From Caulobacter sp. (GTDB lineage Bacteria > Pseudomonadota > Alphaproteobacteria > Caulobacterales > Caulobacteraceae): a DNA stretch of 64,000 nucleotides. The position numbers and the translations under genes were made by a program. The notes under the pieces are model-generated. The model searched no databases, was not told where the DNA came from, and was given only the letters and a program-made list of their open reading frames with translations. Of the stretch, positions 1,625 to 46,717 are shown piece after piece. The stretch's first letter is position 1. Each line of letters opens with the position of its first letter. The stretch is from positions 1 to 64,000 of the forward strand of contig JAQGIP010000001.1 in assembly GCA_028291055.1 (NCBI GenBank), written 5' to 3'.

Positions 1625-1644
1625 CCATAGATATACCTCTTTAG
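1625..1644. promoter_or_regulatory. Regulon palindrome, site 1
   Basis: The left half CCATAGATAT and right half ACCTCTTTAG match the block-1 consensus CAATAGAGRTAYCTCTATTG. It lies in the divergent promoter region between the SDR (minus) and phosphotransferase (plus) genes and could control both. Confidence 0.65.
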
Positions 1645-1710
1645 GACATCAAGGGCGCCGCGCGGCAATCCAGCGACCGGGCCGAATCGCAACGAATGGA
1701 GAGAGCAGGC

Positions 1711-2751
1711 GTGACCGCGAACGATGTCCTTGATCCCGCCCGGCGGGCGCGGATCACCGCCTGGCTGGACATTCAGGCGCCTTTGCTAGGTCACGGCCCC
1801 TTGGAAGCGACCCCCCTGTCAGGAGGCTCCAGCAACGATGTCTTCCGCATCACGCGGGGGGCGCGCGTGGCCGTGCTGCGCGCACCCCGGCTGACCGACG
1901 ACCGCATGATCGACCGCGAGGCGCGCGTCCTGGCGGCGCTGGCCGGGTCAGGCATCGCCCATGCGCGGCTGCTCGGCCATTGCACAGACCCCGCCATCCT
2001 GGGGCGACACTTCATCGTCTCCGACCTGGTTGAAGGCGTGGATGGGCCCCAGGTGATGGAGCAGTGCGAAACCTTCGGCGAGCAGGAGGCGGGCGAACTG
2101 GCCTTTGCCGTGGTGGACGCGGCGGCGGGCCTGTCGAACCTGGACTACCGGGCCGTGGGGCTGGAGGATTTCGGCAAGCCGGAGGGTTTCCTGGCCCGGC
2201 AGGTCGATCGATGGCTGGCCATGCTGGCCTCCTATGCCGAGCGCCGCGGCCATGTGGCGCGCGATATTCCGGAGCTGGCCTTCCTCGGCGGCTGGCTGGG
2301 CGAGAACATGCCGCCGCCGGGCGCGCCGGGCCTGATCCACGGCGACATCGGTTTTTCCAACGCCATCTTCAGTCCGGACCGGCCCCGGCGGGTGTTGGCG
2401 ATGCTGGACTGGGAGACGGCCACCATCGGCGACCCGCTGCTCGACCTGGGCCGTGCGGTGCTGCCCATGCGCGGGGAGGGGCGGGCGCACCAACCGACCC
2501 GGCTGCACGACTACCGCAAATTTCCCACCCGCGAAGCCCTGGGCCGGGCCTATGAGGCGGCCACGGGCCGCTCGGTCGCCCACCTCGACTACTATGTGGT
2601 GCTGGCCCACTTCAAACTGGCCGTCATCCTGGAACGCCACCACACTACGGCGGTGACCCGACCCGACCCCCAAGGCCAGGCCAGGATGTTGGCCGACTAT
2701 GGCCTGGAACTGTTCTCAAGGGCCGCGGCCATCGCCCGCAAACAGGCCTGA
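1711..2751 (+). CDS. APH-family phosphotransferase (ACAD10/11-type kinase)
   Basis: A 346-residue aminoglycoside-phosphotransferase-fold kinase. The substrate-entry motif LSGGSSNDVFRI, the catalytic loop LIHGDIGFSNAIF and the metal-binding LDWETATIGDPLLDLGRA are all present. I prefer the GTG at 1711 because GGAGAG lies about seven bases upstream; an in-frame ATG exists at 1696. Proteins of this subfamily are related to the kinase domain of vertebrate ACAD10/11, where a 4-hydroxyacyl-CoA is phosphorylated so that a partner dehydrogenase-fold domain can remove the phosphate. An ACAD11-like dehydrogenase is indeed encoded at 43841, so the same chemistry may be split over two genes here. Antibiotic resistance is unlikely in this setting. 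Confidence 0.82.
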   Translation: MTANDVLDPARRARITAWLDIQAPLLGHGPLEATPLSGGSSNDVFRITRGARVAVLRAPRLTDDRMIDREARVLAALAGSGIAHARLLGHCTDPAILGRHFIVSDLVEGVDGPQVMEQCETFGEQEAGELAFAVVDAAAGLSNLDYRAVGLEDFGKPEGFLARQVDRWLAMLASYAERRGHVARDIPELAFLGGWLGENMPPPGAPGLIHGDIGFSNAIFSPDRPRRVLAMLDWETATIGDPLLDLGRAVLPMRGEGRAHQPTRLHDYRKFPTREALGRAYEAATGRSVAHLDYYVVLAHFKLAVILERHHTTAVTRPDPQGQARMLADYGLELFSRAAAIARKQA

Positions 2752-2770
2752 GACCACCTGGAGACGATGC

Positions 2771-3520
2771 GTGACCGACAACCTTTTTGATCTCACCGGC
2801 AAGGTGGCCCTGGTCACCGGCGGCAGCCGCGGCCTGGGCCGGGCCATAGCCCTGGGCTTCGCGGCGGCCGGCGCCGACCTGATCATCGCCAGCCGCAAGC
2901 TGGAGGCCTGCGAGGCCGTGGCCGGGGAGATACGCGCCCTGGGCCGCCGCGCCCTGGCCGTCCAGTGCCACGTGGGCCAGTGGGATGATCTGCAGCGCCT
3001 GACCGACCAGGCCTATGAGGCGTTCGGGCGGGTGGACGTCCTGGTCAACAACGCCGGCATGTCGCCCCTGGCCGCCTCGTCCCTGGAAACCACCGAGGCG
3101 CTGTTCGACAAGATCGTCGATGTGAACTTCAAGGGCGTGTTCCGGCTGACCGCCCTGATCGGCTCGCGCATGGCCGAGGACGGCGGCGGCAGCATCATCA
3201 ACGTTTCCAGCATGGGCGCCGCCAAGCCGCGCCCCTTCATCGCTCCCTATGCCGGCGCCAAGGCCGCGCTGAACACCATCTCGGTGGCCTTCGCGGAAGA
3301 GTTCGGCGGCGGCGGGGTGAGGGTCAACGTGATTTCGCCGGGCGGTTTCCTCACCGACGTGTCCGGGGAATGGGCCAACGACGAGAGCCTGAAGGCCACG
3401 GTGGCGCTGGGCCGATTTGGCCGGCCGCAGGAGATCGTCTCCACCGCCCTCTACCTGGCCAGCGACCACAGCAGCTACACCACCGGGGCAAACATCTGGG
3501 TGAACGGGGGAGGGCGCTGA
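2771..3520 (+). CDS. SDR family oxidoreductase
   Basis: A 249-residue classical SDR. TGGSRGLGRAIA (NAD(P)-binding glycines), NNAGMSPL, the catalytic Ser in INVSSMGAA and YAGAKAALN are in the expected order, and the C-terminal TTGANIWVNGGG closes the fold as in glucose/3-oxoacyl reductase-like members. The GTG at 2771 has GGAG ten bases upstream and gives the normal N-terminus (LFDLTGKVALVTGG). It follows the phosphotransferase by 19 bp in the same direction, suggesting one transcript. The likely step is reversible oxidation of a hydroxyl group on a CoA-bound or free intermediate; the substrate is not evident. Confidence 0.87.
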   Translation: MTDNLFDLTGKVALVTGGSRGLGRAIALGFAAAGADLIIASRKLEACEAVAGEIRALGRRALAVQCHVGQWDDLQRLTDQAYEAFGRVDVLVNNAGMSPLAASSLETTEALFDKIVDVNFKGVFRLTALIGSRMAEDGGGSIINVSSMGAAKPRPFIAPYAGAKAALNTISVAFAEEFGGGGVRVNVISPGGFLTDVSGEWANDESLKATVALGRFGRPQEIVSTALYLASDHSSYTTGANIWVNGGGR

Positions 3521-3541
3521 CCCCTTTCCCGGCGTTTCATG

Positions 3542-3561
3542 CAATAGACATACCTCAAGGA
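3542..3561. promoter_or_regulatory. Regulon palindrome, site 2 (in front of the regulator gene)
   Basis: CAATAGACAT is a good left half-site and ACCTCAAGGA a weaker right half-site of the 20-bp consensus. It lies 42 bp before the GntR start, which suggests autoregulation. Confidence 0.6.
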
Positions 3562-3603
3562 TGATTTTATCCACGGTCAGGGCAAAGAGGGATCCGGCGC
3601 GAC

Positions 3604-4476
3604 ATGCAAAAGAACGGCAAGGCCAGCAACGACGGCTCGACGGCGGTCCGCAAGGTGGCCAAGGCGCTTCGTGCGGTCAGCCTGAATTCGGAACCGGGCG
3701 CCTTCCTGGGCTCCGAGGAAGACCTTTTCACCACCCACAAGGTCAGCCGTCCCACCTTCCGCCAGGCCGCCGCGCTGCTGGCCCAGGAGCAGGTGCTGAT
3801 CATCAAGCGCGGGGTGGGCGGAGGCTATTTCAGCAGCCGTCCCAAGGCGGAGGCGGTGACCCACACCGCCGCCATCTTTCTGCAGGGCAAGGGCACGACA
3901 TTGCAGGAGATTATGCGCGCCATCGTGCCGATCTGGATCGAGCTGTCCAAGGCCGCCACCCTGAGCGGCAATGAGGTGGCGCGCGAGCGGCTTCGGCAGT
4001 TCGCCCACGAGGACGCCGGCCGCTCCATGGCCCACCTCGCCGAGGGGACGTTCGACGTCGAGGAATATGTCGCCTACCTGCGCTCGGAGCGGGAGTTCGC
4101 CTCCCTGGTCGAGGAGCTTTCGGAGAATACCGTCCTCGCCCTCTTCCTCGAAATCCTCAACGATTTCTGCGCCAACCTGCCGAGAGCTCAGGATATTTTC
4201 CGCCGCAATCCGGTGCGGGTGTTTGAGTATTCCGAGATGCGGCGCCGGGTGATGGAGGCCATCATCGACCGCGACGAGCAGATCGCCGCGGTGCAGGCCG
4301 AACGGTGCGCCAAGACCCAGATCTCCTGGCTGACGGAGGACTCGCTGGACAATGCCGGGGCCAAGAAGGACTTCGCGACGGCGCTGGATTTCAGCGCCAG
4401 GACCGTGGCATCGGAGGAACATCCCCGGGGCCGGCGGCCCCGCCTCGCGAACCCGCGCGCGGGCGGTGGACATTGA
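3604..4476 (+). CDS. GntR-family transcriptional regulator with FCD-like ligand domain
   Basis: A 290-residue regulator. Residues about 37-85 carry the GntR winged helix-turn-helix: LGSEEDLFTTHKVSRPTFRQ, then LLAQEQVLIIKRGVGGGYF, the wing. The remaining alpha-helical 200 residues fit an FCD (FadR C-terminal) effector domain, which typically binds acyl-CoAs or carboxylic acids. It is the only DNA-binding regulator I see in the first 50 kb. It lies directly behind one copy of the repeated palindrome and directly before another, so I infer that it is the local regulator of the whole catabolic island, probably a repressor relieved by a pathway intermediate. The ATG at 3604 has only a moderate ribosome site (AGGGAT). 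Confidence 0.88.
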   Translation: MQKNGKASNDGSTAVRKVAKALRAVSLNSEPGAFLGSEEDLFTTHKVSRPTFRQAAALLAQEQVLIIKRGVGGGYFSSRPKAEAVTHTAAIFLQGKGTTLQEIMRAIVPIWIELSKAATLSGNEVARERLRQFAHEDAGRSMAHLAEGTFDVEEYVAYLRSEREFASLVEELSENTVLALFLEILNDFCANLPRAQDIFRRNPVRVFEYSEMRRRVMEAIIDRDEQIAAVQAERCAKTQISWLTEDSLDNAGAKKDFATALDFSARTVASEEHPRGRRPRLANPRAGGGH

Positions 4477-4495
4477 TATAGAGGTACCTTAATTG
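4476..4495. promoter_or_regulatory. Regulon palindrome, site 3
   Basis: The left half ATATAGAGGT is near consensus; the right half is ACCTTAATTG. The site begins on the last base of the GntR stop codon and ends about 30 bp before the next gene, so the acyl-CoA ligase appears to have its own controlled promoter rather than only read-through. Confidence 0.65.
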
Positions 4496-4527
4496 CCATC
4501 ATCAGTGCTGGCGATGGGGTTATGAGA

Positions 4528-6030
4528 ATGTCTCGACTGGTGGCCCTTCTCAAGGGCGTGCTCGCGATTGATCCCGCGGCCGACGCCGTGGAATTCCAGG
4601 AACACTGGCTGAGCTGGGGCGCCCTGGCGGCGACCATGGCCGCCATGGACGCCCACCTCACCGCCCACGGCCTTGGCCCCGACGCTCGGGTCGGCGTGGT
4701 GTTGCGCAACCGCCCGGAGATGATCGCGGCGATCGCGGAGATGATGCGCTCCCAACGATGCATGGTGACCCTCAACGCCTCCTATCCCGACGTCCGGTTG
4801 GCCGAGGATGTGGCCGAGACGGCCGTTCCCGCCATCGTCATCCATGCCCTCGACTGGGCCCGCGATGCCGTGCGCCGGGCTGCCGAGCAGGCGGGGGTGC
4901 TGGTGATCGAGGTCGGCGGCGTGGAGGGGGTGAGCGTGCGCCAAGCCCCGGACCGTTCGCGCGGCGAGGGCGCTTGGCGGGTCTCCGCGTCGGCAACCGC
5001 CATGGAGATGCTGACCAGCGGCACCACGGGCAAGCCCAAGCGCATCCCCATCGCACGGCTGGGCTTCGAGACCTCCCTGCTGGAGGCGGTGCAGTACGAA
5101 TCCGGCCGTTCCGGCGACGACAAACCGGCCCTGCGCACCGGGGTCCAGATTCTGGCGGCGCCCTTCGCCCACACCGCCGGCGTGCAGGCGGTGATGAATG
5201 TACTGCTGTCGGGCCGCCGGTCCTGCCTGCTCGAGAAGTTCACGGTCGAGGCCTTCCGTGGCGCCATCGTGCGCCATCGCCCCAAGGTCGTCTCGGCCAC
5301 CCCGGCCGCCGTGCAGATGCTGGTGGACGCGGGCGTTCCGCGCGAGGATCTGTCCAGCTTGGTGGCCTTCCGCACCGGCGCCGCGGCGCTGGATCCCGAC
5401 CTGGCGGACCGCTTCACCGACCTCTACGGCGTGCCCATCCTGCAGAATTACGGCGCGACGGAGTTTGGCGGCGTGGCCGGCTGGACGCCAGGGGACTTCC
5501 GCGCCCTGTTCAAGGAAAAGCGCGGGAGCGTCGGCCGAATCAACCCTGGAATCTATGCTCGCGTGGTGTCGCCTGAGACCGGCGAGGCCCTGGCGGCCGG
5601 AGAGCAGGGGTTGCTGGAGCTGAAGGCCCCGCACGTTAGCGACGGCGTCTCGTGGCTACGCACCTCCGACCTGGCGGTCCTGGACGACGACCGCTTCCTG
5701 TGGATCAAGGGGCGCGCCGACGGGGCCATCGTGCGCGGCGGCTTCAAGATCCAGCCGGAGGATGTGGCCACCGCCCTGCAAGGCCATCCCTCGATCCGCG
5801 AAGCGGTGGTGGTGGGCATCGCTGACGCCCGCCTTGGGGCCGCTCCGGCGGCGGCCTATACACTGGTAGCAGATGCGCCCGAGCTAACTGACGACGCGTT
5901 GAAACAGTACCTGCGCGACCGTCTGGCGCCCTATCAGGTACCGGTGCGCTTCCTGCGGCTGGAGGAGATGCCGCGCACCGAGTCGATGAAGATCAGCCTG
6001 GTGGCGGTAAAGGGCCTTCTTGAGGCCTAG
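4528..6030 (+). CDS. AMP-forming acyl-CoA synthetase
   Basis: A 500-residue ANL-superfamily ligase that converts a carboxylic acid, ATP and CoA to the acyl-CoA. The P-loop MEMLTSGTTGKPK lies near residue 160, NYGATEFGG (A5 motif) near 310, LRTSDLAVLDDDRFLWIKGR (A7/A8 hinge) near 380, and the C-terminal catalytic Lys region is PRTESMKISLV. The ATG at 4528 has GGGG eight bases upstream; an ATG two codons earlier is too close to it. It is one of four AMP-forming ligases in this island and may be one of the activating steps. It converges on the dehydrogenase gene at 6027 with overlapping stop codons. Confidence 0.87.
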   Translation: MSRLVALLKGVLAIDPAADAVEFQEHWLSWGALAATMAAMDAHLTAHGLGPDARVGVVLRNRPEMIAAIAEMMRSQRCMVTLNASYPDVRLAEDVAETAVPAIVIHALDWARDAVRRAAEQAGVLVIEVGGVEGVSVRQAPDRSRGEGAWRVSASATAMEMLTSGTTGKPKRIPIARLGFETSLLEAVQYESGRSGDDKPALRTGVQILAAPFAHTAGVQAVMNVLLSGRRSCLLEKFTVEAFRGAIVRHRPKVVSATPAAVQMLVDAGVPREDLSSLVAFRTGAAALDPDLADRFTDLYGVPILQNYGATEFGGVAGWTPGDFRALFKEKRGSVGRINPGIYARVVSPETGEALAAGEQGLLELKAPHVSDGVSWLRTSDLAVLDDDRFLWIKGRADGAIVRGGFKIQPEDVATALQGHPSIREAVVVGIADARLGAAPAAAYTLVADAPELTDDALKQYLRDRLAPYQVPVRFLRLEEMPRTESMKISLVAVKGLLEA

Positions 6031-10349: not shown

Positions 10350-10369
10350 TATAAGATATACTTCTATTA
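10350..10369. promoter_or_regulatory. Regulon palindrome, site 4
   Basis: TATAAGATAT and ACTTCTATTA form an AT-rich copy of the block-1 palindrome 24 bp before the leftward dehydratase operon. It is paired with site 5, 95 bp away, in the same divergent region. Confidence 0.6.
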
Positions 10370-10444: not shown

Positions 10445-10464
10445 CAATTCAGATACCTTATTGT
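10445..10464. promoter_or_regulatory. Regulon palindrome, site 5
   Basis: CAATTCAGAT and ACCTTATTGT match the outer and inner parts of the consensus. It lies on the carboxylase side of the divergent region, about 120 bp before the AtuC-like start. Confidence 0.6.
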
Positions 10465-10586
10465 CAATCCGCTGGGGCCCCAATATATCCGTGGGGAACC
10501 GGCTCGGCGGGATGCGTGCGAGCCATCGAAAAATCACCCCACGGCCATCGGCCGCGGGGAGCCGGGGAAGGGGATGGAGGCGAGGA

Positions 10587-12197
10587 ATGGCGGCGATCGA
10601 ATCCCTCATCGACACTCGCGGCGCCGACTTCCGCGACAACCGCGACGCCATGCTGGACCTGCTCGCCCGGGTCCGGGCCCTGGAAGCCAAGGTGCGCGAC
10701 GCCTCGGACTCCAAGCGCCCCCTGTTCGAAAAGCGCGGCCAGATCACCCCGCGCGAAAGGGTCGCCACCCTGTTCGACAGCGACGCGCCCTTCGTGGAAC
10801 TCAGCACCCTGGCGGGCCTGGGCTTGCATGACGACGACGGCCTCGACAACGTGATGGGCGGCGGGCTCATCGTGGGCATGGGCATGGTGGCCGGAACCCG
10901 GGCCATGGTCGTGGCCTCCGACAGCGGCATCAAGGGCGGCACCATCTCGCCCATGGGCGTGCGCAAGCAGCTGCGCGCCCTGGAGATCGCCGCCGAGAAC
11001 CGGCTGCCGGTGGTCTATCTGACCGAATCCGGCGGCGCGAACCTGAAGTACCAGTCCGAGAGCTTCATCGAAGGCGGACGCATGTTCCGCAACCAGGCCC
11101 GGCTGTCGGCCCAGGGTGTGCCGCAGATCAATGTGGTTCACGGCTCCTCGACGGCCGGCGGCGCCTATCTGCCGGGGCTGTCCGATACGGTGATCATGAT
11201 CAAGGGGCGCGCCAAGGTCTTCTTGGCCGGACCGCCCCTGCTGAAGGCGGCCACCGGCGAGATCGCCGAAGACGAGGCCCTGGGCGGGGCGGAGATGCAC
11301 GCCACCGTCTCGGGCCTTGCCGACTATTTCGCCCAGGATGACCGCGATGGCTTGCGGATCGCCCGCGAGGCCATGGCGGCGCTGAACTGGAAGGCGCCGC
11401 CGGACCCCTGCGGCTACGCCGAACCCCTCTATCCCGCCGAAGAATTGGCCGGGGTCGTGCCCGTCGATTTCCGCCGGCCCTATGACGTGCGCGAGGTGAT
11501 CGCCCGCATCGTGGACGGCTCGGACTTTCTGGACTTCAAGGCGCTCTATGGTCCGCAGACGGTCTGCGGTCAGGCCCGCATCGAGGGCCGGCCCTTGGGC
11601 ATTATCGGCAACAACGGCCCGATCGACGCCGACGGCGCCTGTAAGGCGGCCCAGTTCATCCAACTTATGTGCGAGCAGGGCGCGGCCATCCTCTATCTGC
11701 AGAACACCACGGGCTTCATGGTGGGGGTGGAGAGCGAGCGCGCCGGCATCGTCAAGCATGGGTCGAAGATGATCCAGGCGGTGTCCAACGCCACCGTGCC
11801 TCAACTCACCCTGCAGATCGGCGCCAGCTTCGGGGCCGGCAACTACGGCATGTGTGGCCGCGCCTTCGCGCCCAGATTCCTGTTCGCCTGGCCCAACAAC
11901 CGGGTGGCGGTGATGGGGGGAGAGCAGGCGGCCAAGGTGATGACCATCGTCGCCGAGGGCAAGGCCGCCCGCGAGGGGCGCGAGCCGGACCGCCCCGGGC
12001 TGGAGGCCGCCGAGCGGGCCACCATCGACCAGTTCGAGCGGGAATCGTCGGTGCTCTTCTCCACCGCGCGGCTGTGGGACGACGGCGTCATCGACCCGCG
12101 CGACACCCGGCGCATCCTGGGCTTCTGCCTGGCGGCCTGCCTGGAGGGGGACGCGCGCAAGACGCGGCCTTCGACCTTCGGCATGGCGCGGTTCTGA
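10587..12197 (+). CDS. atuC: Acyl-CoA carboxylase carboxyltransferase subunit, AtuC-like
   Basis: A 536-residue carboxyltransferase (beta) subunit, the usual length for methylcrotonyl-/geranyl-CoA carboxylases. The N-terminal half has SDSGIKGGTISPMGVRK and ESGGANL; STAGGAYLPGLSD follows. The C-terminal half has NTTGFMVGVESERAG and QIGASFGAGNYGMCGRAF, the biotin/CoA oxyanion regions. ATG at 10587 has GGAGG plus GAGGA just upstream; the longer frame has no coding look. It transfers carboxylate from biotin (on the AtuF-like subunit, 13066) to a 3-methyl-2-enoyl-CoA. I favour geranyl-CoA-type over methylcrotonyl-CoA because AtuA, an AtuE-like hydratase and an AtuD-like dehydrogenase follow in the same operon, but the substrate could also be a different methyl-branched enoyl-CoA. 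Confidence 0.85.
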   Translation: MAAIESLIDTRGADFRDNRDAMLDLLARVRALEAKVRDASDSKRPLFEKRGQITPRERVATLFDSDAPFVELSTLAGLGLHDDDGLDNVMGGGLIVGMGMVAGTRAMVVASDSGIKGGTISPMGVRKQLRALEIAAENRLPVVYLTESGGANLKYQSESFIEGGRMFRNQARLSAQGVPQINVVHGSSTAGGAYLPGLSDTVIMIKGRAKVFLAGPPLLKAATGEIAEDEALGGAEMHATVSGLADYFAQDDRDGLRIAREAMAALNWKAPPDPCGYAEPLYPAEELAGVVPVDFRRPYDVREVIARIVDGSDFLDFKALYGPQTVCGQARIEGRPLGIIGNNGPIDADGACKAAQFIQLMCEQGAAILYLQNTTGFMVGVESERAGIVKHGSKMIQAVSNATVPQLTLQIGASFGAGNYGMCGRAFAPRFLFAWPNNRVAVMGGEQAAKVMTIVAEGKAAREGREPDRPGLEAAERATIDQFERESSVLFSTARLWDDGVIDPRDTRRILGFCLAACLEGDARKTRPSTFGMARF

Positions 12198-12199
12198 GC

Positions 12200-13069
12200 A
12201 TGGCCCCCCCTTCCGGCATCCCCGCCTCCGACAATCCCGCCTCCGGAAATCCCACCTCCGGCAATCCCACTGCCTCCCTGCTGCGTATCGAGCGGCGCGG
12301 CGTGGCGCTGTTGGTAACCCTGGACGACGCCGCGACGCGCAATGCCATGTCCCCGGCCATGCTGGGTGAACTGGCCGCCGTTGTGGCGGGTCTGGCCCGC
12401 GACCCGGCCCGCTGCCTGGTGCTGCGCGGCGCCAACGGAGCCTTCTGTTCCGGCGGCGACATCGCCAGCTTCGCCAGCGACGCCGCCACCACCCCGCCCA
12501 TGACGGGGGACGATCCGGTGGTCACCGCCAACCGCGCTTTCGGAACACTGCTGCAGCAGTTGGACGCCGCGCCGCAGCTGGTGGTCAGCCTGGTGGAGGG
12601 GCCGGCGTTCGGCGGCGGCTGCGGCCTTGTCTGCGCCTCCGATGTGGCCATTGCGCTCGCCGATGCGCGCTTTGCTCTGTCCGAGACCACCCTGGGCGTG
12701 GCGCCGGCGCAGATTTCGCCCTTCGTGGTCCGCCGCCTGGGCGTGCCCCGGGCCCGCTGGCTGACCATGACCGGCGCGCGGTTCGACGGTCGGGCGGCTT
12801 TGACTCACGGGCTGGCGGACATCGTTTGCGACACCGCCGGCGAGGCAGAAGCGGCTCTGGCGGACATCCTGGCCGGCGTGGCGCGTTGCGCGCCCCGAGC
12901 CAATGCGGCGACCAAGGCCCTCTACGCCCAGGCCGACAGCCAGCCCATCGGCGTCACCCTGGATGGGGCGGCCCGGACCTTCGCCGATGCGCTCCGCGAC
13001 GAGGGCCGCGAGGGCGCCGCCGCCTTCCTGGCGCGGCGCCGGCCCGCCTGGGCCCAGGACGCGGAATGA
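12200..13069 (+). CDS. Enoyl-CoA hydratase, AtuE-like, with repeat-built N-terminal tail
   Basis: A 289-residue crotonase. GANGAFCSGGDIASFASD (about residue 78) and EGPAFGGGCGLVCASDVAIA (about 133) form the oxyanion hole. In an Atu-type pathway this enzyme hydrates isohexenyl-glutaconyl-CoA after carboxylation, and the gene lies exactly between the two carboxylase subunits, as in acyclic-terpene and leucine clusters. The first 30 residues are odd: three to four imperfect copies of the pentapeptide (P/T)ASGN produced by a 15-bp DNA repeat, ahead of the normal first strand LLRIERRGVALLVTL. The start follows the carboxylase stop by two bases, and its own stop overlaps the next start (ATGA). Confidence 0.84.
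   Translation: MAPPSGIPASDNPASGNPTSGNPTASLLRIERRGVALLVTLDDAATRNAMSPAMLGELAAVVAGLARDPARCLVLRGANGAFCSGGDIASFASDAATTPPMTGDDPVVTANRAFGTLLQQLDAAPQLVVSLVEGPAFGGGCGLVCASDVAIALADARFALSETTLGVAPAQISPFVVRRLGVPRARWLTMTGARFDGRAALTHGLADIVCDTAGEAEAALADILAGVARCAPRANAATKALYAQADSQPIGVTLDGAARTFADALRDEGREGAAAFLARRRPAWAQDAE
12212..12273 (+). repeat. 15-bp in-frame tandem repeat in the hydratase gene
   Basis: About four imperfect copies of a GCCTCCGGCAATCCC-like unit run head to tail and encode a PASGN-type pentapeptide. Copy number could vary by slippage without breaking the frame. Confidence 0.75.
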
Positions 13070-15012
13070 TGGCGCGCGCCTTCTCCAAGATCCTGGTGGC
13101 CAACCGCGGCGAGATCGCGGTGCGGGTCATGCGCACCGCCCGGGCGCTGGGCTATCGCAGCGTGGCCGTCGCGTCCGAGGCCGACCGCGACGCCCTGCAT
13201 GCGCGCTTCGCCGATGAGACGGTGGAGATCGGGCCGCCACCCGCCGCCCAGTCCTATCTGGTCGTTGAGCGTATCCTCGAGGCCGCCAGCCGGACCGGCG
13301 CCGATGCCATCCATCCGGGCTATGGCTTCCTGTCGGAAAACGCGGACTTCGCCGAGGCCGTGATCGCCGCCGGCCTGGTCTGGATCGGACCCACGCCCGC
13401 GTCCATCCGGATGATGGGCGACAAGGCGTCCTCCAAGCGGCTGATGCTGGAGAGGGGCGTGCCCTGTATCCCCGGCTATCAGGGCCACGACCAGGACCAC
13501 GAGACCCTGATGCAGGAAGCCGAGCGCATCGGCCGCCCGCTGATGGTCAAGGCCTCCGCCGGCGGCGGCGGCAAGGGCATGCGGCTGGTGCATGAGGGCG
13601 AGGCCGTGGCTGAAGCCATCGCGGCGGCGCGCTCCGAAGCGCGGTCGTCCTTCGGGTCCGACCACCTGATCTTGGAGCGGGCCGTGGTCAACGCTCGGCA
13701 TGTGGAAATCCAGGTGTTCGGCGACGGGCATGGGAACATCCTCCACCTGGGCGAACGAGACTGCTCGGTGCAGCGCCGGCATCAGAAGGTGATCGAGGAG
13801 GCGCCCTCTCCGGCGGTAGACGCCGCGCTTCGCGAGCGGATGGGCCAGGCCGCCGTCGCCGCCGCCCGCGCGGTGGAATATGTGGGCGCCGGGACCGTGG
13901 AATTCCTGTTGGCCGCCGACGGCGCCTTCTACTTCCTGGAGATGAACACCCGGCTACAGGTGGAGCATCCGGTCACCGAGTCCATTACCGGCCTGGACCT
14001 GGTGGCGTGGCAGCTTCGGGTGGCGGCAGGCGAGCCCTTGCCCATCTCACAAGACGAGGTCCGACTGGCGGGGGCGGCCATTGAGGTGCGGCTCTATGCG
14101 GAGTCTCCGGCGGCGGGATTCCTGCCGCGCACCGGTCGGATCGAACGGCTGCGTTTGCCGCAAGGCGAGGGGATAAGGGTCGATCACGGTCTGCGCGAGG
14201 GCATGGAGATCGGCGCGTCCTACGATCCCATGCTGGCCAAGGTGGTCGCATACGGGGCTACGCGCGACGAAGCCCTGCGCAGGCTGGCGCGCGCCCTGGA
14301 AGATTGTTTCATCGCCGGTTGCGAGACCAACCGCGCCTTCCTGATCACCTGTCTCCAAGACCCGGTCTTCGCCTCCGGCGCCGCCACCACCGCCTTCATC
14401 GGCGAGCGGTTCGGGGACGCGGGAGTGGAGGAGCCGCCGACGCCGCCCGAACTTGTCGCCCTGGCGGCTCTGTTGCTGGGCGGCCAGGGTCGGGGGTGGG
14501 CGAGCACCGGGGCCCGCAAGGCCCAGGTCATCCTGCGGGAGGGCGATACCCGTACCGCCGTCGATGTCCAGTCGTCGGCTGAAGGCAGCACGGTGACGCT
14601 GCCGGGTGGCCAGGCCTTTCGGATCAACATCGTGGCCCGGGACGGCTGCGACCTGCGCTTCCGGTGCGACGGCGTTGAGCGGACCTGCCGCCACGCGATG
14701 GTCGGGCGCGATCTGCATCTGTCGTCGGCGGTGGGTGATCACGTCTTCACCAACGACACCCTGGCCGGCGCGGGAGGGGGCGAGACGGAGCGCAAGTCCA
14801 GTTCGCGCGCGCCGATGTCGGGGGTCGTCCAGGCCGTGCTGGTATCGGAGGGCGATACGGTGAGCCGGGGACAGCCCATGGCGATCCTTGAGGCCATGAA
14901 GATGGAACACCGCATCGCCGCCCCGCGAGACGGCGTGGTCAGCCGCGTGCATGTGACCGCCGGCGATCAGGTGGCGACCCGGGCCCTGCTGGTGGAGCTA
15001 GCCGATGAGTAG
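13066..15012 (+). CDS. atuF: Biotin carboxylase/biotin carrier subunit, AtuF-like
   Basis: A 648-residue alpha subunit of a biotin-dependent acyl-CoA carboxylase. The biotin carboxylase domain covers about residues 4-450 (KILVANRGEIAVRVMRTARA at the start; ATP-grasp loop KASAGGGGKGMR near 165; EMNTRLQVEHPVTE near 290). The carboxyl-terminal carrier domain holds EAMKMEH with the biotinyl Lys at about residue 612. The start overlaps the hydratase stop by four bases; a second ATG follows immediately. With the carboxyltransferase at 10587 it makes the full two-subunit enzyme. Its end overlaps the AtuA start by eight bases, so the module is tightly coupled. Confidence 0.88.
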   Translation: MMARAFSKILVANRGEIAVRVMRTARALGYRSVAVASEADRDALHARFADETVEIGPPPAAQSYLVVERILEAASRTGADAIHPGYGFLSENADFAEAVIAAGLVWIGPTPASIRMMGDKASSKRLMLERGVPCIPGYQGHDQDHETLMQEAERIGRPLMVKASAGGGGKGMRLVHEGEAVAEAIAAARSEARSSFGSDHLILERAVVNARHVEIQVFGDGHGNILHLGERDCSVQRRHQKVIEEAPSPAVDAALRERMGQAAVAAARAVEYVGAGTVEFLLAADGAFYFLEMNTRLQVEHPVTESITGLDLVAWQLRVAAGEPLPISQDEVRLAGAAIEVRLYAESPAAGFLPRTGRIERLRLPQGEGIRVDHGLREGMEIGASYDPMLAKVVAYGATRDEALRRLARALEDCFIAGCETNRAFLITCLQDPVFASGAATTAFIGERFGDAGVEEPPTPPELVALAALLLGGQGRGWASTGARKAQVILREGDTRTAVDVQSSAEGSTVTLPGGQAFRINIVARDGCDLRFRCDGVERTCRHAMVGRDLHLSSAVGDHVFTNDTLAGAGGGETERKSSSRAPMSGVVQAVLVSEGDTVSRGQPMAILEAMKMEHRIAAPRDGVVSRVHVTAGDQVATRALLVELADE

Positions 15013-16777
15013 TGACGCGACGGTGCGGATCGGTGGGGCGTCCGGCTACTGGGGCGACACCGCCAGCGGCCCGCGTCAACTGGCCGAGCGCGGCGGCCTG
15101 GACTTCATGGTCTTCGACTATCTGGCGGAAGCGACCATGGCCGTGCTGGCCAAGGCTCGCGCCCGCGACTCCGAGAAGGGCTACGCCACCGACTTCATCG
15201 ACCTTGCCATGCGCCCGCTGCTGGCGCGGCTGATGACGGACGGCGTGCGGGTGGTGGCCAACGCCGGCGGCGTCAATCTTGAGGCCGCGCGCAAGGCCCT
15301 GGAGGCAGTGGCCCGGGACCTGGGCGTCGCGGTGAAGATCGCCACCGTAGAGGGGGACGACCTGCTGGGCCGGGCCGAGGCCTTTCGTGGCCTGCTGCGC
15401 CCCATCGACCCGGCCGCGCCGCTGCCTGAGCGGCTGGCCAGCCTGAACGCCTATCTCGGCGCCTTTCCCATCGCCCGCGCGCTGGATGCCGGCGCCCAGA
15501 TCGTGCTCACCGGCCGCTGCGTGGATTCCGCCCTGATCTTGGGCCCGCTGATCCATGCTTTTGGATGGGGCGAGCGGGACTACGACCTGCTGGCCCAGGG
15601 CAGCCTCTGCGGTCACCTGCTGGAGTGCGGCGCCCAGGCCACCGGCGGCAACTTCACCGACTGGCGCGACACCGAGGCCGGCTGGGCTGACATGGGCTTT
15701 CCCATCGCCGAGGTGTCGGCCGACGGCGGCTTCGTGATGACCAAGCCGGAGGGCACGGGGGGCGCGGTCACCCGGCTGACCGTGGCCGAGCAGCTGGTCT
15801 ATGAGATCGGCGACCCGGCGGCCTATCTACTGCCCGACGTCATCTGTGACTTCCGCGCTGTGACCCTGACGCAGGCCGGCCCTGACCGTGTGTTGGTCGA
15901 AGGCGCCAAGGGGTTGGCCCCACCGCCAACCGTGAAGGTCACGGCCACCTATTTCGACGGCTTCGCCAGCCGTGGGGCCAGCGCCATCGTCGGCGTCGAG
16001 AGCCACGCCAAGGCCGGCCACATGGCCCGCGCCATCCTGGCCAAGGCCGAGGCTTCCGTGGCCGCCACCGGCCTGGCGCCCTTTTCCGACACCCGGCTCG
16101 ATGTGCTTTCGGGCGCCGATGAAGACCCGTCGGACAACCGACCGCGCTGGGGCAGTTCGGTCTTTCGGCTGGCCGTCACCCATGAGAGCGCCCGGGGCGC
16201 GGAACTGTTCGCGCGGGAGTTCACCGGCGCGGGCCTGTCCATGAGCCCCGGCATCACGCCGCTGCAGCAAGGCCGGCCGTCGGTGTCGCCGCTGATCCGG
16301 GTGGCCTCCTTCCTGCTGGACAAGGCCGAGGTCAGCGCGGACGTCCGCTGTGGGGGTGAAGCGGTGGCGACGATGGTCTTCGAAGGCCCCTATGGTGGGG
16401 CCCGCGCGGACGCCGCGCCGCAAGACGACCCAGCCGGCGCCGCCTGGGACGGGGAGGAGACGAGCCTCTTGACGCTGGCCGTGGCCCGCAGCGGCGACAA
16501 GGGCAACGACGCCAACATCGGGGTGATCGCCCGTGACCCCGCCCTGCTACCCGCGATCCGCGCCCAACTGACGCCGCAGCGCGTGGGCGCCCTGTTCGGG
16601 GCCGAACGGGTGGAGCGCTATGACCTGCCGGGCATCGCGGGGTTGAACTTCGTGCTGAGGGACGTCCTGGGCGGTGGCGGGCCGGGATCGCTGCACCTCG
16701 ACCCCCTGGCCAAGACCTTCGCCCAGCGGCTGCTGGCCCTGACCCTTCGAGCGCCCTCGGGCGCAGCCAAGGCCTGA
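15005..16777 (+). CDS. atuA: Acyclic terpene utilisation protein AtuA-like (DUF1446)
   Basis: A 590-residue protein of the AtuA family. The N-terminal DUF1446 region (about 4-450) starts RIGGASGYWGDTASGP and includes IVLTGRCVDSALILGPLIHA and HLLECGAQATGGNFTDW. A second ferredoxin-like AtuA domain occupies about 485-590, starting LLTLAVARSGDKGNDANIGV. AtuA is required for citronellol/geraniol catabolism in Pseudomonas, but its reaction is unknown to me. Here both halves are in one chain. The gene overlaps the AtuF-like gene and is followed two bases later by an acyl-CoA dehydrogenase. The family is also found in uncharacterised clusters, so its presence supports, but does not prove, an isoprenoid substrate. 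Confidence 0.87.
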   Translation: MSSDATVRIGGASGYWGDTASGPRQLAERGGLDFMVFDYLAEATMAVLAKARARDSEKGYATDFIDLAMRPLLARLMTDGVRVVANAGGVNLEAARKALEAVARDLGVAVKIATVEGDDLLGRAEAFRGLLRPIDPAAPLPERLASLNAYLGAFPIARALDAGAQIVLTGRCVDSALILGPLIHAFGWGERDYDLLAQGSLCGHLLECGAQATGGNFTDWRDTEAGWADMGFPIAEVSADGGFVMTKPEGTGGAVTRLTVAEQLVYEIGDPAAYLLPDVICDFRAVTLTQAGPDRVLVEGAKGLAPPPTVKVTATYFDGFASRGASAIVGVESHAKAGHMARAILAKAEASVAATGLAPFSDTRLDVLSGADEDPSDNRPRWGSSVFRLAVTHESARGAELFAREFTGAGLSMSPGITPLQQGRPSVSPLIRVASFLLDKAEVSADVRCGGEAVATMVFEGPYGGARADAAPQDDPAGAAWDGEETSLLTLAVARSGDKGNDANIGVIARDPALLPAIRAQLTPQRVGALFGAERVERYDLPGIAGLNFVLRDVLGGGGPGSLHLDPLAKTFAQRLLALTLRAPSGAAKA

Positions 16778-27415: not shown

Positions 27416-27435
27416 CCATTGAGATTACTCTATAC
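27416..27435. promoter_or_regulatory. Regulon palindrome, site 6
   Basis: CCATTGAGAT and TACTCTATAC match the consensus. The site faces the leftward DUF35/thiolase/GMC operon and is paired with site 7 about 108 bp away. Confidence 0.62.
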
Positions 27436-27523: not shown

Positions 27524-27543
27524 CAATAGAGATAGCTTTATTG
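27524..27543. promoter_or_regulatory. Regulon palindrome, site 7
   Basis: CAATAGAGAT and AGCTTTATTG form one of the best copies. A TTGACC -35-like box at 27517-27522 touches its left side, so bound regulator would occupy the -35 to -10 spacer of the aldehyde dehydrogenase promoter. Confidence 0.7.
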
Positions 27544-30541: not shown

Positions 30542-30565
30542 GGAACGGGGCGATCCGCCGGCCTA

Positions 30566-30583: not shown

Positions 30584-30750
30584 CGCTTTCGCACGCCCCG
30601 TGGAGGCGGGGGCGCCGCGCCCAACAAACACCTCCCCCACGCAACTGAGTGATTGACGGACCCTCCAATCCCGCCTCACATACTAAAAACAGAAGAAGCT
30701 TCCGCTTTGAGATCGGACGCTGAAAACTCGGACGGCCAGGGAGACAGCCC

Positions 30751-35269: not shown

Positions 35270-35271
35270 CC

Positions 35272-36519: not shown

Positions 36520-36561
36520 TTGACTAAAGAGGCGCCGCTTATTAAACATGTACCTCTATTG
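36520..36561 (+). promoter_or_regulatory. Receptor promoter with overlapping palindrome, site 9
   Basis: A -35-like TTGACT (36520-36525), a 17-bp spacer and a -10-like TAAACA (36543-36548) precede the TonB receptor. The palindrome TTAAACATGT/ACCTCTATTG (36542-36561) covers the -10, which suits repression. Confidence 0.65.
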
Positions 36562-36646
36562 GCGAGGTCGCGCCAATGGAACAATCGCCGACGATCTAAA
36601 GGTTCGGCAAGGACAGCTCGGTCGAGCAATAGGGGAGGGCGTGCCT

Positions 36647-41224: not shown

Positions 41225-41273
41225 GAGTTCACATCTCCTGTAGAGGAATGGCCGCCATGGCCCGTCCGCAGCG

Positions 41274-41315
41274 TTGACAGTCATCGATAATCCGCAAATA
41301 GAGTAATCTCAATAG
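41274..41315 (+). promoter_or_regulatory. Promoter with overlapping palindrome, site 10
   Basis: A perfect -35 TTGACA (41274-41279) and a -10-like AATAGA 17 bp later point to the rightward hot-dog operon. The palindrome AAATAGAGTA/ATCTCAATAG (41296-41315) covers the -10. It lies 72 bp before the divergent fused dehydrogenase and could control both. Confidence 0.68.
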
Positions 41316-41891: not shown

Positions 41892-42307
41892 CGGGGGAGG
41901 GGATCAGCCTCGGCGATTCGCTGGGCGAGATCGTCATTGCGGTGACCTATGCGCGGGTGATCCGCAACGTGGCCGCCGGACGCGACTTCATGCGCGGCCA
42001 CCATGAGCCCGCTTTCGCGCGGGAGCAGGGGATTGCCACCATCTATGTGAATACCTTTTTCCATCAGGCCCTGATCGACAGGCTGATGACCGACTGGGGC
42101 GGGCGCCGGGCCTTCATCGCGCGGCGCAAGATCATGATGCGGCTGCCGATCTGCGCGGGAGACACCGCCACCGCGAGCGGCCGGGTGGTGGGACTGCGCA
42201 CCCATGCCGATGGCCACCGGCTCGTCGATCTGGAGATGGCGATCCGCAATGCGGCGGGCGTCTGCTGCGAGGCGTTGGGCACGCTGGCGATGCCGGGGGA
42301 GCCGTGA
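41888..42307 (+). CDS. MaoC-like hot-dog protein, small partner
   Basis: A 139-residue hot-dog-fold protein. AAGRDFMRGHHEPAFAREQG near residue 30 corresponds to the hydratase segment with D and H, followed by IYVNTFFHQALIDRLMTDWG and ending with LEMAIRNAAGVCCEALGTLA. Coupled by ATGA to the larger hot-dog gene and by GTGA to the acyl-CoA ligase, it is most likely one half of a two-subunit enoyl-CoA hydratase. Confidence 0.78.
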   Translation: MTGEGISLGDSLGEIVIAVTYARVIRNVAAGRDFMRGHHEPAFAREQGIATIYVNTFFHQALIDRLMTDWGGRRAFIARRKIMMRLPICAGDTATASGRVVGLRTHADGHRLVDLEMAIRNAAGVCCEALGTLAMPGEP

Positions 42308-43836
42308 GCGGTCTTGCCCCAGGGCGCCGTTTGAGGCTGACGGCCCTGCGGCGCACCCTGGCGCTGAGCCATGGCGCGCGGATGGCGCTGACCGAGGGCG
42401 CAACCACGCTCAGCTTCGCGGAAATCGACGCCCGGGCCGAGCAGGCCGCCGCGATTCTGCGGGCGCGGGGCGTGGCGCCGGGCGACCGGGTCGCCATTCT
42501 GCTGCCCGATGGCTTGGCGGTGGTGGTGCTCTACCTGGCCTGCGCGCAACTGGGCGCCATCGCCACCCCCCTGAACTGGCGCCTTGCCGCCGGCGAGATC
42601 GCCCACATCCTGCAACGGGCCGCGCCCCGGCTGCTGGTCACCGCGCCCCGGTTCGCTGGATTGGCGCCGGTCGGGGCAGGGCCGGAAACGCTGATGCTGG
42701 CGGACGGCGAGGGCGCGCTGCACTCGCTTTGCGCGCTCGCGGGCGATACGGGTCCGGCGGAGGACGACAGCGGCGTGGACCCCTTCCTGATGCTGTTCAC
42801 CAGCGGCACCACGGGCCTGCCCAAGGGTTGCGTCCTGGGCCAGGAGGGGCAGGCGGCGGCCGCGCTCGCTATCGCCCTGGTCCAACGCCTGGCCCCATCC
42901 GACCGGCTGCTGTCCGTGCCGCCCCTGTTTCATGTGGGCGGCTGGAGCATGCTACTAGCCCATTGGGCGGCGGGCGCGAGCTGCGTGTTCGCGCCACAGC
43001 CCCTCTCCGCCGACGCCTGGTGCGACCTGATCGAGCGGCATGGCTGCACCTCCGCCAGCCTGCCGCCCACGCTGCGCGACGACGTCCTCGCCCGCGCTGA
43101 TCTGCATGAGCGGACGGCGTCCCTGCGCCGCCTTTCCAACGCGGGCACGACGATGATCGACCGCGACCGGTTCGCCGATCTGCACCAGACTTTCGGCGAT
43201 CGGATTTCGGTGGGCTATGGCCTGACCGAGGCGGGGGCCTTCGTGGCCCAGATGAACGGGGGCGAACAGCTGGACCGCCTGGACGGCTGCGGCAGGCTGA
43301 TGCCGCATCTGGAAGCCCGTATCCTGTCGCAGGCCGGAGAAGTGTTGGCGACCGGATCCGTGGGCGAGCTGGCCCTGCGCGGGCCCAGTGTGACCCTGGG
43401 CTACTGGGACGATGCAGCCGCCACCGCGGCCGCCTTGACCGGCGGCTGGATGAAGACCGGGGACCTCGCCTCCTTCGACGCCCACGGCTACCTGCGCTTC
43501 GCCGGGCGGGTGAAGGAACTGATCAAAACCGGCGGCGAGAATGTCTATCCGCTGGAGGTGGAGCGGGTGCTGATGCGTCACCCGGGCGTAGGCGACTGCG
43601 CAGTCGCGGGCGTGCCGGACGGGCGTTGGGGCGAGGCGGTCAAGGCCTTCATCGTACCCGCGCCCGGGGCCTGGGTGGACCCGGCCGCGATCCGCCAATG
43701 GCTGAGCCACGACCTGGCCGGCTACAAGCACCCCCGCTACCTGGAGTTCCTCGACGCCATTCCGCGCACGGCCCTGGGCAAGGTAGAGCGCCTGGCCCTA
43801 TCCCAGCGTCCCGTCACGCCGGAGCAGGCGATCTAG
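42304..43836 (+). CDS. AMP-forming acyl-CoA synthetase
   Basis: A 510-residue ANL ligase: LMLFTSGTTGLPKGCVLGQE (P-loop) near residue 165, GYGLTEAGAFVAQMNGG near 300 and KTGDLASFDAHGYLRFAGR near 380. LIKTGGENVYPLEVE follows, and PRTALGKVERL provides the catalytic Lys. The GTG start overlaps the hot-dog gene stop (GTGA). It resembles FadD-type long or cyclic acid ligases. It is the last gene of a three-gene rightward operon and ends four bases before a converging dehydrogenase gene. Confidence 0.86.
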   Translation: MSGLAPGRRLRLTALRRTLALSHGARMALTEGATTLSFAEIDARAEQAAAILRARGVAPGDRVAILLPDGLAVVVLYLACAQLGAIATPLNWRLAAGEIAHILQRAAPRLLVTAPRFAGLAPVGAGPETLMLADGEGALHSLCALAGDTGPAEDDSGVDPFLMLFTSGTTGLPKGCVLGQEGQAAAALAIALVQRLAPSDRLLSVPPLFHVGGWSMLLAHWAAGASCVFAPQPLSADAWCDLIERHGCTSASLPPTLRDDVLARADLHERTASLRRLSNAGTTMIDRDRFADLHQTFGDRISVGYGLTEAGAFVAQMNGGEQLDRLDGCGRLMPHLEARILSQAGEVLATGSVGELALRGPSVTLGYWDDAAATAAALTGGWMKTGDLASFDAHGYLRFAGRVKELIKTGGENVYPLEVERVLMRHPGVGDCAVAGVPDGRWGEAVKAFIVPAPGAWVDPAAIRQWLSHDLAGYKHPRYLEFLDAIPRTALGKVERLALSQRPVTPEQAI

Positions 43837-43840
43837 AGTC

Positions 43841-45040: not shown

Positions 45041-45069
45041 GGGGTCTCTCCTGGCAGGCATCGATATGG

Positions 45070-45089
45070 CTAAAGAGATACCTCTTTAG
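45070..45089. promoter_or_regulatory. Regulon palindrome, site 11 (best copy)
   Basis: CTAAAGAGAT and ACCTCTTTAG are reverse complements at nine of ten positions. It lies 30 bp before the ACAD11-like gene and is the most symmetrical copy in the window. Confidence 0.72.
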
Positions 45090-45108
45090 CGTTGACCGTG
45101 GGCGGGCG

Positions 45109-46620
45109 CTAGCCGCGAAGCATCCGCTTCAACAGCTTGCCGGTGGGCAGGCGGGGCAGGGCGTCCACGAACTCCAGGGTGCGCGGGCATTTGTAGGCCG
45201 CCAGCTTGGCGCGGCAGTGAGCCAGCAGTTCGGCCGCCAGGTCCGTATCGCCCCGGGCGGAGGGGTCGGCCACCACCAGCGCCTTCACCTGCTCGCCCAT
45301 CTCCTCATCGGGAACGCCGATGACGGCGGCGTCCAGCACCTTGGGGTGGCTGATCAGCAGGTCCTCGGTCTCCTGGGGGTAGATGTTGACGCCGCCAGAA
45401 ATGATCATGTTGCTGCGCCGGTCGGACAGATAGAGGTAGCCGTCCTCGTCCAGCCGGCCGATGTCGCCCAGGGTGCCCCAGCCGTGGGCGTTGAAGAACT
45501 GGGCGGTCTTGGCGTCGTCCTTATGGTAGGCGAAGGCCTCGGCGTCCTCGAAGTAGATGGTACCGGTCTCTCCCGCCGCCAGTACGGTTCCGTCGTCGCC
45601 GACGATGCGGATCGGCCCGCCGATCGAGCGTCCGACACTGCCCTCGTGGGCCAGCCATTCCTCCGACCCCAGGGTGGTGAAGCCGCCGCCCTCGCTGCCC
45701 GAATAGAACTCGTGGATGACCGGTCCCCACCAGTCGATCATCGCCCGCTTTACGGGAATGGCGCAGGGCGCGGCGGCGTGTAGGACCACTTCCAGGCTGC
45801 TGAGGTCGTAGCGACGGCGCGCGCCGTCCGGCAATTTGAGCATCCTGACGAAGTGGGTCGGCACGAAATGCGGGTGTGTCACGTGGTGGCGCTCGATGGC
45901 GGCGAGGGTGGCTTCCGCGTCAAACCGTTCAGCTATGACGACCGTGCCGCCGTGCATCTGGGCCGACATGGACCAGCCCAGCGGCGCGGCATGGTAGAGG
46001 GGCGCGGGATTGAAATAGACCATCCGCTCGCGGAACCCGAACAGCGACTGGACCATCCCCTCAAGCGCCCGCATCTCGCCGAACGGCGCGTTGGGCAGGG
46101 GGCGCAGGATGCCCTTCGGGTGACCCGTGGTGCCGGAGGAATAGAACATATAGACGCCGTCGCGCTCATTGGGCGGGGCCGTGGCGGGCTGGTCGGCGAT
46201 GGCCTCGTCCAGCAGCTGGAAGCCCTCGATGGGCCGGCGGATCACCAAGCGCAGCATGTCGGCGGGCATGGCCGCCGCCACCGACTGGGCCAGCGTCGCC
46301 AGGGCGGGCGAGGCGATCAGGGCGCGGGCGTCGCAGTCGCGAACCAGGTAGGCGGCCTCCTCGGAGCCCAGGTGCCAGTTGATCGGCACATAGCGCAGCT
46401 CGGCCCGGCGGATCGCCCAGGCGATCGCGAAATACTCCACCACATTGTCCAGCAGGATGGCGACGCGGTCGCCGGCGGCCAGCCCCTCGTCGCGCAGCAT
46501 GCGCGCGATCCGGATCGACAGCTCGTTCATTTCGCGGAACGAGAGACGGTCTCCGCTGCTGGCGCAGATCACCGCCGGGCGGTCCGGCGCGGCGGCGGCG
46601 ATGCTGTCGATCGATGGCAT
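45109..46620 (-). CDS. AMP-forming acyl-CoA synthetase
   Basis: A 503-residue ANL ligase with MFYSSGTTGHPKGILRPL near residue 160, EFYSGSEGGGFTTLGSEEW near 300 and TLGDIGRLDEDGYLYLSDR near 385. MIISGGVNIYPQE follows, and PRLPTGKLLKRMLRG ends the protein with the catalytic Lys. GGAGGAGG precedes the ATG at 46620. It is divergent from the NDP-forming synthetase, with an operator between. It resembles FadD-type ligases of steroid and aromatic clusters; the acid is not identified. Confidence 0.86.
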   Translation of the reverse strand: MPSIDSIAAAAPDRPAVICASSGDRLSFREMNELSIRIARMLRDEGLAAGDRVAILLDNVVEYFAIAWAIRRAELRYVPINWHLGSEEAAYLVRDCDARALIASPALATLAQSVAAAMPADMLRLVIRRPIEGFQLLDEAIADQPATAPPNERDGVYMFYSSGTTGHPKGILRPLPNAPFGEMRALEGMVQSLFGFRERMVYFNPAPLYHAAPLGWSMSAQMHGGTVVIAERFDAEATLAAIERHHVTHPHFVPTHFVRMLKLPDGARRRYDLSSLEVVLHAAAPCAIPVKRAMIDWWGPVIHEFYSGSEGGGFTTLGSEEWLAHEGSVGRSIGGPIRIVGDDGTVLAAGETGTIYFEDAEAFAYHKDDAKTAQFFNAHGWGTLGDIGRLDEDGYLYLSDRRSNMIISGGVNIYPQETEDLLISHPKVLDAAVIGVPDEEMGEQVKALVVADPSARGDTDLAAELLAHCRAKLAAYKCPRTLEFVDALPRLPTGKLLKRMLRG

Positions 46621-46675
46621 GGGGTCCTCCTCCGGAAGCTCGGTGCGGGGGCGTTCAGCGTTGGTTCGGCCCGCG

Positions 46676-46717
46676 TTGACAGCCTTTCACAACCTGCTAA
46701 TTGAGTAACCTCAATAT
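46676..46717 (+). promoter_or_regulatory. Promoter with overlapping palindrome, site 12
   Basis: A perfect -35 TTGACA (46676-46681), a 17-bp spacer and a -10-like AATTGA precede the synthetase at 46754. The palindrome TAATTGAGTA/ACCTCAATAT (46698-46717) covers the -10, the same layout as site 10. Confidence 0.68.

Follow-up and report, generated by a model that had tools for sequence, protein, structure and literature searches.

Introduction

In the KstR and KstR2 regulons of actinobacterial steroid breakdown, a local palindrome stands before many units of a large cluster of acyl-coenzyme A (CoA), thiolase and ChsH2-type genes, and both regulators are TetR proteins. The atu and liu clusters of Pseudomonas, which serve acyclic terpenes and leucine, are run by a TetR (AtuR) and a MerR (LiuR) regulator, respectively. 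FadR-type GntR proteins are mostly repressors, and TetR proteins usually use short palindromes. This study concerns a stretch of 64,000 nucleotides from Caulobacter sp. (assembly GCA_028291055.1, contig JAQGIP010000001.1, positions 1 to 64,000; hereafter the window), in which twelve 20-bp sites stand in front of the transcription units of a catabolic gene block (block 1), and the GntR/FCD protein P0001 encoded in that block, which was proposed as their binder.

Like the atu and liu clusters, block 1 holds AtuA, acyl-CoA carboxylase subunits, enoyl-CoA hydratase and acyl-CoA dehydrogenases together. Unlike them, it has a GntR regulator as well as ChsH2-like/thiolase pairs, paired dehydrogenases and a TonB receptor. 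The TetR gene in or beside the cluster that marks AtuR-type control was absent from 37 open reading frames (ORFs) of block 1 scanned; one was found on another contig, C114. With the KstR and KstR2 regulons, block 1 shares the local palindrome ahead of many units; the KstR palindromes are other ones. For the FCD family, AT-rich palindromes, autoregulation and paired sites in divergons are described; FadR-type operators are given as TKGT/ACMA boxes separated by 2 or 3 nt, from which NanR and BioR deviate, and arginine at position 28 is tied to the G of the FadR-type box (PMC4494728).

Results

Twelve related sites stand clear of the rest of the window

The window has a guanine-plus-cytosine (GC) content of 67%, and an AT-rich 20-mer was read at exactly each of the twelve coordinates given in the preliminary description (Table 1). 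The consensus offered there, CAATAGAGRTAYCTCTATTG, proved too strict: the sites depart from it at 2 to 7 positions each, and one of the twelve (27524) matched at ≤3 mismatches. A looser pattern, HHAWWGAKDTAHMTCWWTDD, selected on the window sites with two sites of C114 already in view, covered all twelve at ≤2 mismatches. Self-complementarity ranged from 4 to 9 of 10 base pairs per site. When each site was left out in turn from a symmetric matrix, the twelve scored 17.5 to 28.6 bits and ranked 12th or better in the window, so that no other window position outranks them. With the full matrix the top non-site reached 14.1 bits (33656) and the second 8.8. In 100 Markov-1 copies of the window (6.4 Mb) the maximum was 19.0 bits, and two positions reached ≥17 bits. 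It had also been claimed that none lies beyond 46,717, and this held: no score there exceeded 6.5 bits, and the final 3.7 kb of the contig reached no more than 7.6 bits. A covariance model built from sequence alone recovered 3 of the 12 sites at E ≤10 and was set aside as too weak for scanning genomes. These findings clearly show that the twelve sites are real and clear of all other positions in the window.

The motif is concentrated in block 1 and on one further contig

A genome-wide scan had been named beforehand as the refuting test for the proposed regulon, which it did not overturn. In the 4.99-Mb genome, HHAWWGAKDTAHMTCWWTDD at ≤2 mismatches gave 21 matches compared to 3 for the reversed control, and 14 of the 21 lay in block 1 or on C114 (12 in the window and 2 on C114). 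The other seven were scattered: two overlapping on C52 and one each on C6, C10, C12, C62 and C130. Those on C52, C12 and C6 were inside the longest ORFs, and those on C10 and C62 were outside ORFs. At ≤1 mismatch there were eight genome matches, all on C28 (the window contig) or C114, and none for the control. The C114 sites lie between SDR and MFS genes (names read from translations), one of them (5981) within the longest SDR ORF ahead of its likely start. Judged from these matches, the regulon is larger than the window shows: C114 adds two sites. Across the family, a match was found in 102 of 390 genomes. No genome other than the one studied had more than 5 (the maximum, in G115), and the dense site set is therefore particular to the genome studied.

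Contig C130 (5195 bases) has 29% GC in a 67% GC genome, and at the two places checked no 120-aa ORF lay closer than 1.5 kb; the contig is likely contamination, or a mobile or organellar piece. On C31 of the same genome, a near-perfect palindrome, ATATAAGGATATCTTTATAT (L013:5569-5588), lies over the start of an ArsR-type gene (named by eye) and is probably that gene's own operator.

P0001 is the candidate binder

The preliminary description held the GntR protein to be the only regulator in this half, and no other was detected among the 37 ORFs of block 1 scanned with Pfam, two of which gave no family. Its role as proposed binder gained support from the confinement of the motif in the genome, the sites at its own gene and the homologue loci described below. 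P0001 matched PF00392 (GntR winged helix) with an E value of 1.9e-5 and 24.7 bits. In an alignment of homologues the GntR domain was found in 8 of 8 members and FCD in 7 of 8 (E ≤1), and the Azospirillum homologue gave 29.5 bits for GntR, above the cut-off, and 51.6 bits for FCD. The structure model of P0001 (predicted local distance difference test 78, predicted template-modelling score 0.60) has a winged helix and an all-helical C-terminal domain of six or more helices, as in the FadR/FCD subfamily (NanR, FadR, VanR, PdhR, LldR). The top Foldseek matches to the model were NanR, McbR and VanR, with FadR and LldR-type proteins further down, at template-modelling scores on the query that were low (0.26 to 0.41). 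Both features of the subfamily, the N-terminal GntR winged helix and the all-helical FCD effector domain, were thus present, and P0001 is, judged by alignment and predicted fold, a divergent GntR/FCD protein.

P0001 is without a close ortholog. Identity was 33% to a paralogue on C59 of the same genome, 37% to proteins of two Caulobacter and 36% to those of Azospirillum and Sphingobium plasmids. The homologue in the same-genus genome G027 lies at 98684-99376 of a 298,222-bp contig. With P0001 as query, no relative was found in the collection of genome contigs, and when the whole class was searched with the GntR alignment at E ≤1e-30, only the own genome matched (1 of 385).

Sites beside homologous regulators

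Eighteen homologue loci were scanned with a matrix trained on the window sites only. Nine came from the 12 best places of the homologue search, after the own gene and G025 (a near-copy of G027) had been dropped and the ORF halves of G374 counted once, and nine from plasmid records; the weaker of the 63 homologue places, Streptomyces NBC_00080 and Paracoccus were left out. The controls were 27 of 31 loci from an AtuA search (8 kb or longer, first 16.7 kb), which had no GntR homologue at E ≤1e-4. Because AT-rich gaps inflate Markov p-values, these were replaced by 300 symmetric permutations of the matrix columns, and counts below are out of 300.

P ≤0.05 was reached at 5 of 18 homologue loci compared to 1 of 27 controls (Mann-Whitney P 8e-4). 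The five were Azospirillum (0), Rhodococcus (1), Mycobacterium branderi A (2), Streptomyces (5) and Novosphingobium A (7). Values between 0.05 and 0.2 were found at five loci: S. baderi (22), G027 (27), G378 (33), G374c (35) and G015 (59). Higher values were found at C59 (77), G374a (85), G374b (237), G375 (155), G377 (195), S. paeninsulae (66), Novosphingobium B (109) and M. branderi B (67). A significant site ≤450 bp upstream of the regulator was present at 3 of 18 loci (Azospirillum 0, Rhodococcus 1, Novosphingobium A 3).

The clearest case among the homologues was Azospirillum sp. B510: on its plasmid pAB510a, sites of 31.0, 23.6 and 21.2 bits lie 1.9 to 5.8 kb from the 36%-identical GntR homologue. 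The first scores above every window site, and none of 400 simulated loci had a site of ≥21 bits. The whole 1.46-Mb plasmid had 6 pattern matches compared to 2 for the control, and 3 of the 6 were at the GntR locus. Two of the sites stand before minus-strand genes of the ETF and Usp families, and the third extends into the 5' end of a longest ORF whose flavin-reductase domain begins at residue 52. The only other regulator among the 18 ORFs scanned at this locus was a LysR gene approximately 12 kb from the nearest site. Whole-record scans showed no excess over control in Rhodococcus (2 and 2, respectively), Streptomyces (0 and 1), Novosphingobium (4 and 4) and S. paeninsulae (6 and 5); counts were 5 and 1 in M. 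branderi, not at the tested GntR loci, and 1 and 0 in S. baderi. One of the two Rhodococcus matches was the site upstream of the FCD gene. As most of these scans were without excess, the case outside Azospirillum and the own genome rests on single sites.

On the M. branderi plasmid pJCM12687 (L196), four genes are annotated as GntR/FCD, within 25 kb of a cluster that contains P450, an acyl-CoA dehydrogenase pair and lipid-transfer/OB-fold genes.

The paralogue on C59 and variant sites

On C59 the 15-mer CAATAGTGATATTAG occurs twice in opposite orientations, approximately 5 kb from the GntR paralogue and between putative TonB receptor and amidohydrolase genes (read from sequence); another 6.8 kb along is a third relative. 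These sites are not singled out by the window matrix (77/300). A hybrid pattern built from C59 and window sites was found at 12 distinct places in the genome (C59 3, C28 5, C114 1, C24 1, C130 2) and at none in the control; since it was built from sites that it finds, it indicates likeness only and is no independent proof. In G374, the gap that separates a homologue from a divergent amidohydrolase-like gene holds CAAAAGGGATACCTTCTCAG and CAATATGGATACCTTTTATTG (gap 24/300), and in S. baderi CAATAGAGGTA occurs twice in tandem in the gap before the regulator (29/300).

Tandem GntR/FCD modules were seen in ORFs of about 457-525 aa. In G374 C21 (L094:8526-10100) they form one fused 525-aa frame, and similar ORFs occur in G050 C412, G022 C90, G073 C9, G192 C242 and G278 C159. 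A built-in double regulator of this kind would be unusual.

The predicted operator departs from the family rule

The conserved letters of the sites are GAG-N4-CTC. The TKGT/ACMA boxes, which are usual, not strictly defining, for the FCD subfamily (PMC4494728), are absent from the twelve sites, a first difference from that subfamily. A second difference lies in the protein: the R of SEREL in NanR, which by our own mapping is position 28 of that source, aligns with E in the profile of the P0001 group and with E39 of P0001. The equivalent residue was read in 17 of 22 proteins and was R in one (Streptomyces), E or D in eight and T, P, A or Q in eight. NanR and BioR are likewise described as FCD regulators outside the family consensus, and differ in that their sites are direct repeats, TGGTATAW and TTATMKATAA, and not a 20-bp palindrome (PMC4494728). 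The operator was not recognised in the open-licence literature searched, which is not proof of absence. Taken together, the sites and the protein family suggest that the operator of this probable FCD-GntR regulon lies outside the family rule.

Placement of the sites in block 1

Every transcription unit that can be drawn in block 1 has a site in front (gene names from Pfam; Table 1). The placement of the sites between genes held for 8 of 12, which fall in none of the main genes' longest ORFs. Each of the remaining four (1625, 10445, 27524 and 36542) runs into the 5' end of such an ORF and would be intergenic only with a later start codon. Site 4476 touches the final base of the GntR stop codon. 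With later starts assumed, the gaps make up 5% of the block and contain all twelve sites, a figure that is not independent because the starts were moved by the analyst. No site was found in the 400-bp gap 30351-30750 inside the P450 operon, where the nearest best score was 8.8 bits at 30344.

A site had been placed at the GntR gene's own promoter, and one was indeed found 42 bp before the ATG, with a second at the gene's end. Three sites had been said to cover the -10 element. At 41296 this was borne out, with AATAGA inside the site, 17 bp behind TTGACA. At 36542 and 46698 a TTGACT/TTGACA box stands at the distance claimed (17 bp) and the -10 is poor (8/12 letters in all, by eye, against a cut-off of 9/12). 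Looping between paired sites was considered: five spacings (95, 96, 107, 107 and 108 bp) are approximately 9 or 10 helical turns. The idea is weakened by the pair 36287/36542, 255 bp or 24.3 turns apart, and the numbers are too few for a claim.

Table 1. Predicted operator sites, candidate regulator and selected target genes in the window
Feature	Position	Strand	Score (bits)	Context	Basis
GntR/FCD regulator P0001, 290 aa, proposed binder	3604..4476	+			Pfam, structure model, Foldseek
Carboxyltransferase, enoyl-CoA hydratase, biotin carboxylase and AtuA genes (putative targets)	10461..16777	+			Pfam
Predicted operator site CCATAGATATACCTCTTTAG	1625..1644		27.3	SDR (-) / phosphotransferase-family gene (+) divergon	
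Predicted operator site CAATAGACATACCTCAAGGA	3542..3561		21.1 (weakest of 12)	42 bp upstream of GntR ATG	
Predicted operator site ATATAGAGGTACCTTAATTG	4476..4495		28.5	before CoA ligase 4522-6030	
Predicted operator site TATAAGATATACTTCTATTA	10350..10369		23.1	before (-) dehydrogenase operon 10332-6027	
Predicted operator site CAATTCAGATACCTTATTGT	10445..10464		22.0	before carboxylase/AtuA operon	
Predicted operator site CCATTGAGATTACTCTATAC	27416..27435		23.3	before (-) ChsH2-like/thiolase/GMC unit	
Predicted operator site CAATAGAGATAGCTTTATTG	27524..27543		27.9	before aldehyde dehydrogenase/P450 operon	
Predicted operator site TTATTGAGATAAATCTATAA	36287..36306		30.6	upstream of TonB receptor, 255 bp from 36542 site	
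Predicted operator site TTAAACATGTACCTCTATTG	36542..36561		26.0	5' end of TonB receptor ORF 36548-38998	
Predicted operator site AAATAGAGTAATCTCAATAG	41296..41315		27.9	double acyl-CoA dehydrogenase (-) / (+) unit with CoA ligase 42304-43836	
Predicted operator site CTAAAGAGATACCTCTTTAG	45070..45089		29.0	before acyl-CoA dehydrogenase 45061-43841 (-); most symmetric, 9/10	
Predicted operator site TAATTGAGTAACCTCAATAT	46698..46717		26.6	CoA ligase (-) / ATP-grasp acyl-CoA synthetase (+) divergon	

The minus-strand ORF 39095-41284, near genes for separate dehydrogenases, encodes a single 729-aa chain that joins two acyl-CoA dehydrogenase parts. A second block without the motif (50796-62902) contains amidohydrolases, GST and two P450 genes, and an AsnC/Lrp-type regulator is encoded in it at 57017-57481.

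Discussion

The twelve sites and the two on C114 are probably the operators of one local regulon bound by P0001. We infer that P0001 binds the sites, presumably as a dimer, and represses the surrounding catabolic block, its own gene included, and that the DNA would be released when the FCD domain binds an intermediate of the pathway, the likeliest being a CoA thioester or the free acid. We are less sure of the sign of control and of the ligand than of the regulon and its binder. From its gene content, block 1 looks like a pathway for the breakdown of a methyl-branched or isoprenoid acid: the AtuA and carboxylase genes suggest such a substrate, and the ChsH2-like/thiolase pairs suggest steroid-like side chains. 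Many acyl-CoA dehydrogenases, CoA ligases and the TonB receptor complete the catabolic gene set.

Several findings weigh against this assignment. P0001 falls under the Pfam cut-offs for both domains (24.7 versus 27 bits for GntR, 15.6 versus 24.3 for FCD), and the site before its gene is the weakest of the twelve. The pattern used for the genome scan was chosen knowing the twelve sites and the two of C114, and C114 also carries a TetR gene. Among the homologue loci, 8 of 18 gave P >0.2 and 15 of 18 had no significant site just upstream of the regulator; moreover, the 18 are not independent, as they come from 14 genomes or records. Finally, one control, Hoeflea L124 (0/300), has a strong site beside a TetR gene and no GntR homologue.

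P0001 might bind the sites and activate transcription, or both activate and repress, and we regard this as unlikely. It would fit with the finding that only 6 of the 12 sites overlap or adjoin a promoter-like match of ≥9/12 letters, in a scan without a chance control. Against it stand the mostly repressive habit of FadR-type proteins, the site between the GntR gene start and its upstream neighbour, and the coverage by site 41296 of the -10 behind TTGACA.

Slightly less probable still is that another regulator, such as the C114 TetR protein, binds the sites and that the GntR gene is merely one target. Short palindromes are what TetR proteins usually use, the C114 TetR gene is approximately 3 kb from the two sites there, and in Hoeflea poritis TAATAGAGATCCATCTATTG (L124:6207-6226, 25.2 bits) lies just before AtuA, next to a divergently oriented TetR gene, and the 18 kb examined contain no GntR homologue. 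Neither C114 site is at the TetR gene itself, both being 3 kb away, and the Hoeflea genome as a whole had no motif excess (21 matches versus 21 for controls). The Azospirillum locus, on the other hand, combines the motif with a GntR homologue and has no TetR gene among the ORFs scanned, its LysR gene being distant.

A reading of the sites as terminators, as a dispersed repeat or as an artefact of AT-rich gaps in GC-rich DNA, and not as operators, can practically be dismissed. The sites are indeed AT-rich and fall mostly in gaps, which are AT-rich in this genome, but the reversed pattern of equal composition gave 3 matches versus 21, no Markov copy of the window scored as high as 19.1 bits, and the sites differ too much from each other for a mobile repeat and are kept to one functional block and C114.

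Beyond the predicted repression of block 1 by P0001, a wider proposal is put forward tentatively, at somewhat less than even chances. P0001 may represent an unrecognised FCD-GntR clade, spanning Alphaproteobacteria and Actinobacteria, in which the arginine that usually reads the operator has been lost and a new code is used, ATW-GAG-RTAY-CTC-WAT and variants. Such a clade would travel with catabolic islands that carry acyl-CoA dehydrogenases, ChsH2-like/thiolase pairs and TonB receptors, and two diverged members with diverged operators would be present in one genome. If this is true, the paralogue pair would be a natural example of a regulator and its operator changing in step.

For this Caulobacter, a large catabolic block gains a candidate regulator, operator and target list, and the motif has led to further candidate genes on C114. 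For the family, the locus would be a defined case of FCD-GntR proteins leaving the usual operator, and the paralogue pair within the same genome suits the study of the shift in recognition.

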